Under the pieces are notes generated by a model. It was not told where the DNA came from and did no database searches. It worked only from the letters and a program-made list of their open reading frames with translations. 64,000 nucleotides of DNA. It comes from Proteromonas lacertae. Its lineage: Eukaryota; Sar; Bigyra; Opalinata; Proteromonadidae. Made by a program: the position numbers and the translations under genes. This document shows positions 668-6,322 of the stretch, piece by piece; position 1 is the stretch's first letter; each line of letters begins with the position of its first letter. The stretch covers positions 62,001 to 126,000 of the forward strand of contig NGBS01001164.1 of NCBI GenBank assembly GCA_002245135.1, read 5' to 3'.

Positions 668-3539
668 ATGTATCGGATTGATGTAAATGAAGATGAAAAG
701 TATTGATTTTTTAATTTATTCGATATAGTGCAAATAAAACTGAGGTAGAAAGAACATCGGGGATAAATACAGAAACTCCGTATTTCTACTTTTCATTATT
801 GCTTTTAGAATAAATACAGAGATAAACCTAAAATTTCCAACGTATATAGCTCAGATTATTTTTTCTTAGAACTTTTCCGACTATTACTTCATCTGGAATA
901 AATAGTTTCTCTGTGACAAGTATAATATAACCATTTAATTTGAACCAATAGGCAGCAATAGAAAAGATTCCATAGTAACTATAGGAAGTGATACTTGCTG
1001 TATATTATCACCTGAAGATCGAGAAATCTGTGAAAACAATAAGAAATATAAAAATGATCCTTTAAATCACTTAGTAAGTGAAGTCTATAAGAATACATTT
1101 GTAATTGTTGAAGACACAATAACGATACAAGATGCAATATGTTTGTTGTATCAAAAGAAGTATAATTATCTATATTAATGCATGATATAGGTGTGATTCA
1201 CTGTTAATTACACATCAAAAGGCATATGTAAAATCATTGTCACGGACAGATATAGCTTGTTCTGTATTATCGAATGGTTTACTTCATGAAAACAAAACAC
1301 TTGAAGAAATAATTAAATTAGAAGAATCTGATAGTTGTAAAACCATCAGTTCATCAGCTACAATATTAGAATGTATGAGAAGGATGAAAAAAGAAGTATA
1401 AATTACATTATCATTATCTCTATTATAATAGGAAACAAATTATTTATTAGTGGAAGAAGGATCAAGTGGTTTAAGTGGAATAATAACTGAACATTCAATA
1501 TTTAATTATATTGGAGAACAGTTGGCTAAAAGTGTAGTATCCAATGGTGAAAATATGAGTCATTATGGATATAAAATAAAGAAATTTTTAGATTCATTAT
1601 GTATATATATATATTTCATTTTAATTATATATTTTCTATAGATTATCAATTTTTTATTCTTTTATTTCTCTTAGTAAATATCGCAATATTTATATCATCA
1701 TTCACATATATGAATTTCGATTTAGCAGTTATTATGAATTTACCATTCTCTGTAATTTTATTTATTGAATTATTAATAAGAATTAAAATCACTGGTGTAA
1801 AACATATGTGTAAAATAGATCTAACTGCAGGAATATTAACTGTACTCGCACTTCTAACAGGTATAGCATCAATAAAAGTAACAGACACATATGAAAGAGC
1901 AAGAATGGGAGTATATATAGTGAATATAGTGGTAACTACGTTGAGAGCTTTTGTATTAGGAATTATAAAAGCAATTCAATATAAAAAGAAAGTAATAAAA
2001 CATTCTAAACATTTAGTTAGTCAAAATAAAAGAAGATATAAGAAAGATGGATTTGATTTGGATTTAACTTATATAACTCCAAGATGTATAGCAATGTCTT
2101 TACCTTCAGAAAGTGTAGAGAGTATCTATAGAAATCCAATCAAAGAAGTTTCTCGATTCTTCAATACAAAACATCCAGATTGTTATAGAATCTATAACTT
2201 ATGTAATGAAAGAGATTATGATAGTAAATATTTCAATAATAAAGTGATGAAATATCCAATTCCTGATCATAATGTTCCAACACTTTGGACAATGCATGAA
2301 TTCGCTAGAGATGTGTTAAATTATTTAAATCAAAGTCCGTATAATGTAATAGCTGTTCATTGTAAAGGTGGAAAAGGAAGAACAGGTTGTATGGTTTGTG
2401 CATATTTGTTAGCAAGTGGTGTGTGTTTATCAGCTGAAGAAGCATTGAAATTGTTTAAAGAGAAAAGAACTTATTGTGAAGATAATGGAGATGAAGAAAA
2501 GAATGAAAATGAAGGGGATGATGATGGTAATGGTAATAATACTGGCAGTAGAAGAGATTTAAAATTAGCAATAACAAAGATGAAGAAGAAACATCAAGGA
2601 GTGAGTGGTCCAAGTCAAATTAGATTTGTAAATTATTATGAAAGATTTCTATTAGAATTAAAAGAACTGTATAATTCAAATCCTGATTTATTTATGTCAA
2701 CATCAACCACTCCAATTATTGAAGAAAGAAAGAATAATAATGGTATTACAACAATACCAGAATCAAGTAGTTCTGGTGAAAATAAGAATAAAGGATCAGG
2801 TGATTCAAATAATGAAGATATTAGGAATATATTAAAAGATCATCCAGAAAGTGTAATATCATTAAGGACAATGGGAGGATTTAGACATTTAAATACATCA
2901 TTAGGAAAAGATCGAACTCTAGAAAATATATTAAATACTCCACAATTAGAGACAGATAAAACAATTCAATCAAAATCAGCACCAAATTCAAGAAGAAAGG
3001 CTGATAGTTCTTCACTTTGTTGCAGTTCTACAAATGATATTCACCAAATATATAAAATGTCTCAATGTAATTTGTCGCAATTATTATATGATAATTTTGT
3101 TAAGAAAGTTGAAGTAAATGAAATTGTTATAAAAAATGTATATATATATATATATTATTATTTGTTTAGTTACCCAAACTATGCCATTGCACTCATATAT
3201 TTTCTATTACAGATTATCAAGGTAATACATTGTGGGAAGAGAATCTTAGTAATAGTGGTAAAGAGAATAAAATGATTGTTTTAAAACCAGGAATAAAAGT
3301 TATTGCTGAGTTTAAATTCTCATTGAAAAATACTTTCTTCATATGGTTTAATTCATAGTATACATTTTCAATTTTTATCGATTTTTTAGTTTTGTGAAGG
3401 AAGAAATGTCGTTAGGTAAGAAAGAAATCGATGAAGCATGTAGAAATCCAAAGTATATTTTGTTTTTTTATTGTTTCTTTATAGATTTAATTCAAATTTT
3501 CAAATCGATTTTCGTTTTACCGAAACTCCTTTAATTTAA
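668..3539 (+). CDS. CBS-domain + voltage-sensor-like + PTEN-family phosphatase (VSP/TPTE-like)
   Basis: Splicing ten introns (700-728, 780-808, 842-869, 920-951, 1160-1190, 1396-1431, 1601-1641, 3138-3169, 3358-3389, 3453-3484) gives an uninterrupted 849-aa protein. Residues about 95-235 resemble a CBS-domain pair (TFVIVEDTITIQDAI, DSLLITHQKAYV, GLSGIITEHSIFNYI). Residues about 250-372 hold four hydrophobic segments like a voltage-sensor domain; the S4-like helix has few charges (TTLRAFVLGIIKAIQYKKK). The phosphatase domain follows, with P-loop HCKGGKGRTG near residue 489, the signature of voltage-sensing phosphatases and TPTE; Cys, Arg and both Lys are present. An acidic Asn/Glu/Gly insert follows the active site. 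The C-terminus is a PTEN-type C2 domain ending in strands FFIWFNSYF and FNSNFQIDFRF. Such enzymes dephosphorylate phosphoinositides at the membrane; whether voltage gates this one is open. The CBS module is the unusual part. Confidence 0.85.
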
Positions 3540-3797: not shown

Positions 3798-5168
3798 CTA
3801 CACTCTAACTTCAAACACTCCATTCTGAATACCTCTTCTAAAATTGCTAGTCACTTTAGCATCCATCATATTCACAATCTTAAAATTCTTCATTTGTAAT
3901 CCTGATACAGTTCTTCCTGGAGCACTAAACAACAACGAAATAGTTGATTTATCTTTAGGTATAGAAGAACCATGTTTCAGTAATATTTTACCAGTTAATT
4001 GAGGTGTAATTAGTTCTGGAATCTTTCCAATTGCCCATTTTATCATCTTAGTAGATGGGTCAAAGGATGCATAACCAGTATTTACCTCAAATGTTACCAT
4101 ACTAACACATTCAGGGAATGGAATCTTTACATGAATATTATCTAATGGTAAATAAGGTGTATTATTTACTACAGGTGCATATCTTGTACCAACCATAACT
4201 TCTATTCTACCTTGAACTGAATTGTCTTCCATCGTATTGTAAGTTAATATTGGTTTACAGTAGATTGGAACATTTACTTCCACACTTTCAGGTAAGCTAT
4301 ATTCCATTAACTATGTATATAATATATAATAATAATAATTATACAATAAATGATCCATCTGGAGGTATGAATGATAATATACTTGAAGAAGCCCATGTTC
4401 TTAGTCTGACACATGGATGGAATGTTGGATTTAATAATAATGATGGATTATTGAATTCAATTGATATATCTGGTGTACCATTAACATAACATCGACAATA
4501 TAATGTTCCTGCTACACTACAACGAACTGTCTTACCATTTCTATTATATTATATTCATATGTTATATACGAAACAATGCAATTCAATCTTTCTACACAAT
4601 CACAGGTAACTTCATTTGCATTATATTGAACTCCTTTACGTCTCCATGATATAGCAGATAATGCATTACCTGGTAAAAATTCACTTACATTTGATTGACC
4701 AGATAATATTGATGTAAGACGATTTGCTACTGTTGGAACTCGAACCATTGCCATTAAAGAGTTTGGTTCGGTTAATAGTGGATATCCATAATCTACCATA
4801 TCCTCTAATAATTGAAATACTGTTGTAAAATTGGTTTTTATTGTATCGACTGTGATGAGTTGGAAGTAAGCAACTAGAGTTGCATGTATTCTATTAAGTA
4901 AATCGATTACCATTAAAGGAGGAACTTCTCTACTCAATGCTGCAAGGTAAATTACAGAATCTCTTCTAGAGTTAATAAGGTAATAACGTGGTGTTGCTAT
5001 TATTGGTAAAACATTCTAAAAAACATAATAATGATATTATACATCAACTGACTTTACTGCTTGAACTTCATTCCAAAATAATTCACAAACACCTCTACCA
5101 ATGGTCTTCCTCCAATGTTTTTCAAGAACTACTTCTCCTTTTGTTGACATTATAAACAATGACTCCAT
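3798..5168 (-). CDS. AP3M: AP-3 complex subunit mu
   Basis: Medium chain of the AP-3 adaptor, which sorts cargo from endosomes or trans-Golgi to lysosome-related compartments. Three introns (5016-5042, 4541-4569, 4311-4344) yield 426 aa, the normal family length. The N-terminal longin domain starts MESLFIMSTKGEVVLEKHWR; the linker has ISWRRKGVQYNANEV; the mu homology domain has FHPCVRLRTW, LSFIPPDGSF and ends GIQNGVFEVRV. The mu-3 type is favoured over mu-1/2 by the short N-terminal motif and the shape of the C-terminus. The gene is tail-to-tail with the phosphatase gene and divergent from the first glycosyltransferase gene. Confidence 0.85.
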
Positions 5169-5485
5169 ATTTCCTACAAAAATCCTTTTCTAAAAAAAAA
5201 GATTGAGAAAAAACTTGGCTTGATATGAAACGATAATATTAATAAAATTGAAATATCAATACATACAAGATGGTTCTTAGTAAATAATAATTATAAAAGT
5301 AATAAAAACTACAGTAATAGTATTTCTAAAAACATATTATCTTCTGGAGCAAGATTCGGAGTGAAGATTATAAAACAATGTACATATCTCTGGACTTTGA
5401 TCGTTAAGAAATGGAAAGAGTAATATTAAATGAAATAGAATGACATTATTGAAAAGATAACATTTGAAACGGATATATTTTTGAA
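5169..5485. promoter_or_regulatory. Divergent promoter, AP-3 mu / glycosyltransferase 1
   Basis: The 317-bp spacer carries GGCTTGA (5217-5223) and GAAACG (5227-5232) side by side 50-65 bp above the AP-3 mu start. A second GAAACGG (5466-5472) sits 14 bp above the glycosyltransferase ATG. The segment from about 5212 is echoed at 6450 ahead of the second glycosyltransferase gene, so the upstream region was duplicated too. No ORF or RNA gene is apparent. Confidence 0.5.
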
Positions 5486-6322
5486 ATGGTGTATTTTATT
5501 TTTGTTATTTCAGGAGTAATATTAATTGTATCAACTCTATATTATTTAAATAAACAAACGTATCGATCAAAAATTTATAAAGCATTGGTATTAGTAAAGG
5601 TAAGAAACCCAACAAAATCTCAAATACGAAGATACCGTAAATGGAAAAGTATGATGGATGATGAATACAAATTAGAAATTTTAAGTGATAAAGACTTGAA
5701 AATACCAAATATGACAGTAAATGTGATTTACCCTGAAGAACTATTTAAAAAATGGCCAAACATATTAAAAATGGGAGGTATGTGCTATAATCGAGGTACT
5801 TCATATACAATGTGGGTAGCTATTGTTGAACATTACATATTATGTGCTGTAAAGTCAAAATTTAGATTCAAATATTTATGGATGGTTGAGCAAGATTTAG
5901 GCTATTCTGGTAATTTGTATGAATTCATGAAACAATATGAGAATGACAATGTTGATGTAATTTCTATAGACTACTGGAAAAAGAAAACATCTTTTTGGAC
6001 TGAATGTTTTACTCCTGAATACTACAATTGGAGGATTAAATATCATTATAATTACAAATACCAGAGTTATAATTGGATTACTCGTTTGAGTAACAAGGCA
6101 ATAAACTTATTATATAATGAGTTTGAATTAGGAAGACATGTAGCAAATGAGGAAGCATTGCCTGAAAGACTTGAACCTCTAAAAATGACTTATAAAGCAA
6201 TTAATTCGAGTTACAATGGATATAAGCTAAATTGGAATGCACGAGTACATGCAAAAGAATGGGAACAAATATTAAACAACACAGATCATAAAAATAAAAT
6301 ATTCCATGCTTTGAAATTCTAG
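5486..6322 (+). CDS. Type II membrane glycosyltransferase-like protein, tandem copy 1
   Basis: Intronless 278-aa protein with an N-terminal signal anchor (about residues 3-22, FIFVISGVILIVSTLYYL) and a short cytosolic end, the topology of Golgi glycosyltransferases. The core contains YLWMVEQDLGYSGN, resembling the acidic nucleotide-sugar motif (W-x-x-E-x-D) of poorly characterised protist glycosyltransferase-like families, followed by aromatic-rich segments (YKYQSYNWITRLSNKAI). Donor and acceptor are unknown and activity is inferred. A paralogue of equal length lies 420 bp downstream in the same orientation. A 94-bp stretch (5870-5963) is almost identical between them while the rest has diverged, suggesting local conversion or strong constraint. 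Confidence 0.6.
   Translation: MVYFIFVISGVILIVSTLYYLNKQTYRSKIYKALVLVKVRNPTKSQIRRYRKWKSMMDDEYKLEILSDKDLKIPNMTVNVIYPEELFKKWPNILKMGGMCYNRGTSYTMWVAIVEHYILCAVKSKFRFKYLWMVEQDLGYSGNLYEFMKQYENDNVDVISIDYWKKKTSFWTECFTPEYYNWRIKYHYNYKYQSYNWITRLSNKAINLLYNEFELGRHVANEEALPERLEPLKMTYKAINSSYNGYKLNWNARVHAKEWEQILNNTDHKNKIFHALKF

Follow-up and report, generated by a model that had tools for sequence, protein, structure and literature searches.

A predicted gene family of Proteromonas lacertae in which a CBS-domain pair is joined in frame to a VSP/TPTE-type membrane phosphatase

The window (the whole stretch of DNA that was analysed, 64,000 nucleotides long) covers positions 62001-126000 of contig C352 in the Proteromonas lacertae genome, which comprises 50.2 Mb in 1181 contigs. 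Near its start lies a gene on the forward strand, the model and domain fusion of which were predicted from the genomic sequence. Its features are as follows.

668-3539, forward strand: whole gene, 11 exons, 849 residues; ATG at 668, stop codon TAA at 3537-3539
668-699, 729-779, 809-841, 870-919, 952-1159, 1191-1395, forward strand: exons 1-6
1432-1600, 1642-3137, 3170-3357, 3390-3452, 3485-3539, forward strand: exons 7-11
1059-1548, forward strand: CBS pair, residues about 92-232, exons 5-7 (Pfam PF00571 and PDB profile matches)
1601-1641, forward strand: phase-1 intron of 41 bp between the CBS module and the membrane domain, at the same position and in the same phase in 9 of 11 family genes
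1644-1997, forward strand: four-helix S1-S4-type membrane domain (4g7v_S match, AlphaFold2 model, residue tables)
1914-1997, forward strand: S4-like helix, R and K being the two basic residues in the span -34 to -17 counted from NKRRY
2016-2471, forward strand: PTEN/VSP-type phosphatase domain, with the NKRRY linker motif before it
2358-2387, forward strand: catalytic P-loop HCKGGKGRTG, VSP form, identical in 11 of 11 models
2478-2588, forward strand: acidic/Asn-rich insertion directly before the gating (TI) loop (sequence, alignment)
2589-2627, forward strand: gating/TI loop region KKHQGVSGPSQIR, with SG at the place of ET (VSP) or TI (PTEN)
3066-3536, forward strand: C2 domain, exons 8-11; PF10409 below its cut-off; intron 3138-3169 keeps the frame

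In order, the predicted protein has two CBS domains followed by a four-helix membrane domain of the S1-S4 type, a phosphatase of the VSP/TPTE type and a C2 domain of the PTEN type, which scores under its Pfam cut-off. The exons, frame and domains put forward in a sequence-only reading of the same DNA were borne out by the spliced model together with the Pfam and PDB profile matches. The gene had been placed at 952-3539; the end of this interval was retained, while the start had to be moved upstream, since the gene gains four short exons with the ATG at 668. Of these, exons 3-4 are backed by intron positions in common with the paralogue C139_112986, and exons 1-2 are predicted from splice signals and frame alone. 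All ten introns have the form GTAT...TAG and are 28-41 bp long. Two of them (1160-1190 and 1396-1431) interrupt the coding region of the CBS pair, and the 32-bp intron at the exon 8/9 junction (3138-3169) preserves the C2 frame.

Other features are found on both sides of the gene. The last exon of an adjoining gene occupies 44-508 on the forward strand; it gave no Pfam match and no PDB match, and its product, read by eye, presumably resembles nephrocystin-4, which would fit a flagellated organism. An adaptor complex medium (mu) subunit (PF00928, 81.8 bits) is encoded at 3798-4310 on the reverse strand. At 5468-6322 on the forward strand there is an open frame of 284 amino acids, with an N-terminal hydrophobic stretch and without a Pfam match at E<=0.1.

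The identity of the CBS pair was checked with Pfam. In the full protein PF00571 scored 36.4 bits over one stretch, and in the excised CBS region it scored 42.5 bits over two stretches (cut-off 24 in both cases). The CBS-like pair proposed earlier is therefore confirmed by this check, with PF00571 over its cut-off and two stretches recognised in the excised region; two tandem PF00571 domains in the window protein constitute a CBS pair (Bateman module). When a profile made from eight CBS pairs of this genome was compared with solved CBS proteins, the best match was archaeal MJ1225 (3kh5, E=1.7e-15), and CorC, AMPK gamma and others were among the further matches.

Exon 8, searched against the genome, matched at 30 places, its own among them, and spliced-alignment models were built for fifteen other loci (the matches at C584, C1120 and C1119 were left out). 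Membrane domain and phosphatase are both covered in 12 of these models; in the other three (C633, C43 and C85) the alignment begins only beyond the membrane domain. Upstream DNA from each locus, and 300 random stretches of the window, were then aligned with the CBS portion of the window protein. It can be seen that, first, CBS-like sequence upstream of all twelve membrane-domain loci beat 300 out of 300 random stretches (603 bp of DNA being used for C139_101603) and, secondly, that none of the three other loci did so. Three of the loci, C4, C5 and C1180, are 98.4-99.7% identical, and two of these three stretches have broken frames; they are probably alternative haplotype or assembly copies of one gene. 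C5 and C1180 were rejected as extra genes on account of this near-identity with each other and with C4. The twelve loci therefore represent ten paralogues, i.e. eleven genes together with the window gene. Eight of the eleven lie within 84-118 kb of contig C139, in an array (C139:82000-121999) of CBS-phosphatase genes on both strands.

In the paralogues, PF00571 exceeded its cut-off in 8 of the 9 models scanned; C139_106556, which shares 97% of its CBS residues with C139_110828, was left out of the scan. The exception was C352_190226 (14.8 bits), for which the second CBS half alone is supported, under the Pfam cut-off. A looser alignment suggested a CBS1 for this gene; its score of 108 stood against 102 for the best of 150 random stretches, and it was not accepted. 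In C352_190226 one exon, 190043-190634, encodes the latter half of CBS2 (identified by alignment), the membrane domain and the beginning of the phosphatase; no stop occurs at 190043-190675. Introns in the ten paralogue models start with GTAT in 46 of 57 cases and end with TAG in 48 of 57, false ones included. As these models were fitted to the window protein, they lean towards it; the random-stretch control is independent of that. In addition, the alignment with 9c49_A begins upstream of the splice between exons 7 and 8 (residue 250) and continues across it, so that the segment leading into S1 shares an exon with the end of CBS2. The in-frame joining of the CBS pair to a membrane phosphatase, which had first been noticed in the letters alone, is thus supported by the shared junction intron, by CBS-like sequence upstream at every one of the twelve loci and by an alignment that crosses the splice. 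With eleven distinct genes of this architecture in the genome, the predicted fusion is real and not an exon-joining artefact.

Several phosphatase families scored over their Pfam cut-offs in the window protein. The best solved relative was 9c49_A (named TPTE2 or zebrafish VSP; E=1.3e-58, residues 233-526), with Ci-VSP chains next. The HCKGGKGRTG P-loop reported earlier as that of VSP/TPTE phosphatases was recovered throughout the family (11/11 models), and the CKGGKGRTG P-loop, the NKRRY-type linker and the homology to VSPs assign the enzyme to the VSP/TPTE phosphatases. In the available part of PMC6182344, the P-loop of PTEN has Ala126 where VSPs have Gly, and PTEN chimeras acquired 5-phosphatase activity toward PI(3,4,5)P3 by A126G alone. 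Because the P-loop Gly of the window protein is the residue carried by these A126G chimeras, the enzyme would by analogy act on PI(3,4,5)P3, probably with 5-phosphatase activity. The C2 domain that had been claimed downstream is in frame and is a weaker assignment than the others, PF10409 scoring 22.6 bits, under its cut-off of 27.1 (residues 799-845, profile positions 83-133). Three of the ten paralogue models reach the C2 part. In the structural model of exon 8 (mean pLDDT 73.9) this part is of low confidence and lacks exons 9-11, and the model was given no weight.

The membrane domain was modelled by AlphaFold2 as 4 helices with a mean pLDDT of 86.3, and the Ci-VSP sensor chain 4g7v_S matches residues 251-389 at E=2.9e-4. 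With the membrane domain as sole query, Foldseek found nothing significant (best E 1.7). The position of this four-helix S1-S4 domain, N-terminal to the phosphatase, is that of VSP/TPTE proteins. Ion_trans had 77 matches elsewhere in the genome and none at the CBS-phosphatase loci. These genomic Ion_trans matches are many, and several stand in repeated sets resembling multi-repeat voltage-gated channels.

The residues of the VSP charge-transfer region were then compared. In the window gene the S1 Asp, S2 Phe and S3 Asp are not present, being replaced by N, L and A, respectively (versus D in 37/38, F in 38/38 and D in 38/38 of the sequences compared). Across the family, the S1 Asp is found in 1 of 11 genes, the S2 Phe in none, and an acidic S3 residue in six (Asp in 2, Glu in 4); the S2 Arg is retained in all eleven. 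In S4 of the window gene, positions -28 and -22 from NKRRY are Leu and Gly. By an ungapped count from NKRRY, the positions of Ci-VSP R223 and R229 are both basic in 0/11 of the family genes versus 84/136 database homologues. One gapped alignment places the R and K of the window S4 on two of three conserved Arg columns, and another places them on none; in 27 of 136 database homologues this S4 span holds no more than two basic residues. S4 thus looks thinned rather than bare, with a count that varies with the alignment. The few S4 charges pointed out in the sequence-only reading hold insofar as two basic residues are left; the helix is not empty, and one gapped alignment keeps two Arg columns. 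Loss or change of voltage control, as suggested there, agrees with the lost S1, S2 and S3 residues of the window gene and is weakened by the alignment-dependent S4 count. Judged by these residues, the window gene encodes a degraded voltage sensor. C139_93634 retains the S1 Asp, the S3 Asp and three basic S4 residues; because of these residues, and of the acidic S3 residue in 6/11 genes, some members of the family may still be controlled by voltage.

A second element was considered in the gating/TI loop, which in the available part of PMC6182344 is given as ET in VSPs and TI in PTEN. All nine models that reach this loop have SG, SC or TC in place of ET, which is present in 145 of 163 database loops. 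Such a loss of the gating-loop Glu would fit a loss of voltage gating.

The modules of the protein differ in conservation. For ten genes (45 pairs; C352_190226 was left out, its CBS being incomplete), CBS identity was higher than membrane-domain identity in 44/45 pairs (all but the window gene and C139_93634), and phosphatase identity was higher than CBS identity, again in 44/45. Between the window gene and its closest paralogue C139_112986, the NG86 estimates were dN 0.21 and dS 0.79 for CBS, dN 0.49 and dS 0.90 for the membrane domain, and dN 0.12 and dS 0.62 for the phosphatase; dN/dS is rough here because many pair distances are near saturation. Identity between C139_110828 and C139_106556 is 97% in CBS, 28% in the membrane domain and 76% in the phosphatase, and C139_104056 and C139_106556 are 88% identical in the phosphatase, 40% in CBS and 19% in the membrane domain. 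Because CBS or phosphatase can be near-identical between copies with differing membrane domains, array copies seem to have swapped or converted these modules.

CBS domains that bind nucleotides carry the motif G-h-h-T/S-x-x-D/N, as given in the available part of PMC6429129. CBS2 of the window gene reads GIITEHS at this place, with Ser at the ribose-binding Asp/Asn position, and in CBS1 the Ser and Asp are retained and the Gly is gone. A complete CBS2 motif is present in four of the eleven genes (C139_101603, C139_116969, C139_104056 and C139_93634), the window gene not among them, and the CBS1 Gly is retained in 0/10 readable genes. Because the motifs of the window gene are incomplete, adenine-nucleotide binding by its CBS pair is no more than a possibility. 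The idea of an energy-gated phosphatase is not supported: with CBS2 short of its Asp/Asn and CBS1 of its Gly, adenine nucleotides are not favoured over other ligands or dimerisation.

Our interpretation is built on five observations: the fusion itself, its recurrence in a family of genes, a catalytic motif that is intact, sensor residues that are lost from the window gene, and a CBS pair better conserved than the membrane domain. A small gene family in which a CBS module accompanies lost sensor residues suggests that the control input has been exchanged. We give about an even chance to the reading that the product is a membrane phosphoinositide phosphatase descended from VSP/TPTE proteins and regulated by its CBS pair, under little or no voltage control. 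According to it, the CBS pair joined to S1 would have become the regulatory input of the phosphatase. Presumably cytosolic, it might bind a small ligand (nucleotide or other) or dimerise, and its ligand or dimer state might shift the S1-S4 domain and the linker. The S1-S4 domain, its sensing machinery largely lost, would mainly anchor the enzyme and relay movement or dimer state, and the phosphatase would be repositioned at the membrane or altered in its activity. Coupling between CBS and membrane domain may be assumed by analogy with CNNM, in which, in the available part of PMC6429129, MgATP binding moves the helix between the two.

A more tentative proposal, which we hold somewhat more doubtful than true, concerns the origin of the family. 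An ancestral VSP would have gained the CBS pair while its sensor still worked, as proposed because of the residues kept in C139_93634, and most copies would then have lost the sensor. This would have produced a multigene, ligand-controlled set, each member possibly with its own ligand, the array copies trading CBS and phosphatase modules on either side of a rapidly changing membrane domain.

Alternatively, the CBS pair may be a ligand-free module for dimerisation or localisation, the enzyme being constitutive at the membrane and controlled by expression or partners; we regard this as unlikely, though it is the strongest of the alternatives. CBS pairs commonly dimerise. The complete CBS2 motif, confined to 4/11 genes and absent from the window gene, and the CBS1 Gly, missing from all ten readable genes, would agree with such a role, as would the CNNM dimers described in the available part of PMC6429129. 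However, the CBS pair is well conserved, some paralogues have the full motif, and the motif can vary with the ligand.

VSPs are textbook enzymes driven by membrane potential, and a voltage-sensing phosphatase that still works with fewer charges, merely tuned by CBS, has to be considered as well. The changed S1 Asp, S2 Phe and S3 Asp of the window gene and the absence of the gating-loop Glu from 9/9 models reaching the loop make this improbable, even though one S4 Arg and one Lys fall on conserved Arg columns in one gapped alignment, the S2 Arg is kept in 11/11 genes, an acidic S3 residue in 6/11, and more of these residues in C139_93634. It is very improbable that the CBS pair regulates the active site in cis, in the way that the CBS2 loop of CNNM docks into the active site of PRL: the available part of PMC6429129 offers the CNNM-PRL precedent of a CBS pair bound to a PTP active site, but the long Asp-bearing CBS2 loop of CNNM is not evident in the window gene, whose CBS2 hairpin reads EEGSSGLSG. 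That two neighbouring genes were wrongly joined, or that the assembly is at fault, is scarcely credible, for although the prediction depends on short introns, CBS lies upstream at 12/12 loci, the junction intron is shared, the junction in C352_190226 is intronless and the homologue alignment spans the splice.

If the product is indeed a CBS-regulated phosphatase, a decayed sensor next to a conserved CBS pair would mean that the coupling between S1-S4 and phosphatase can be driven by another input. The eleven genes, with their graded retention of sensor residues, would form a natural set for studying how a membrane domain controls a PTEN-type enzyme, and possibly a template for ligand-controlled phosphoinositide phosphatases.

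Searches for relatives agree with the earlier view that a CBS pair joined to a VSP/TPTE-type protein is an unusual architecture. PF00571 was absent from the best 120 of 659 family-profile matches, in a search that needs shared short words, so that distant relatives can escape it. A search of the same kind and with the same limit, scored on residues 88-368, gave none of 3534 candidates at E<=1. In the open-licence PMC literature, no paper was found that joins 'voltage-sensing phosphatase' and 'CBS domain'. Two fragments from public assemblies, P0121 and P0122, are 59% and 52% identical to the window protein over 26% and 29% of its length, respectively, and do not reach the CBS region; they show that related organisms exist. 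When the CBS profile was run over a set of 167 proteins, it matched P0002 (Cryptomonas curvata, MMETSP1050) alone, and weakly (E=0.0037), in a single CBS-like stretch at residues 26-75, before S1. This stretch scored 13.4 bits in Pfam against the cut-off of 24, an unrelated family scoring higher, and found nothing better than E=1.1 in the PDB. Being one stretch and under the Pfam cut-off, it was set aside as a weak lead and not accepted as a CBS-VSP relative. P0002 has an Ion_trans-type domain followed by phosphatase-C2, an order like that predicted for the window protein; unlike it, P0002 has two phosphatase-C2 units and one CBS-like stretch instead of a pair. Because of this weak stretch before S1, the CBS-before-S1 arrangement may be older than the present genome.

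Compared with Ci-VSP, TPTE2/Hs-VSP1 and zebrafish VSP, the window protein adds an N-terminal CBS pair, and the gene is without the S1-S3 sensor residues, has a thinned S4 and carries SG, not ET, in the loop. By descent it is of the VSP/TPTE type; the name 'voltage-sensing phosphatase' should be avoided, because the S1-S3 sensor residues and the gating-loop ET were not found in it. With PTEN it has the predicted phosphatase-C2 core in common, its C2 part scoring under the Pfam cut-off, and it differs from PTEN in its membrane domain and CBS pair, in the P-loop Gly instead of Ala and in SG instead of TI. In CNNM/CorC and ClC, as in the window protein, a CBS pair is coupled to a membrane domain. 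In CNNM and ClC the CBS domains follow the membrane domain, whereas here they precede it, and the output is a phosphatase and not transport. Finally, PRL (PTP4A)-CNNM likewise associates a CBS pair with a PTP-type phosphatase; there the two are separate proteins acting in trans, whereas the window gene is predicted to unite them in one polypeptide with an enzyme of the PTEN/VSP type.
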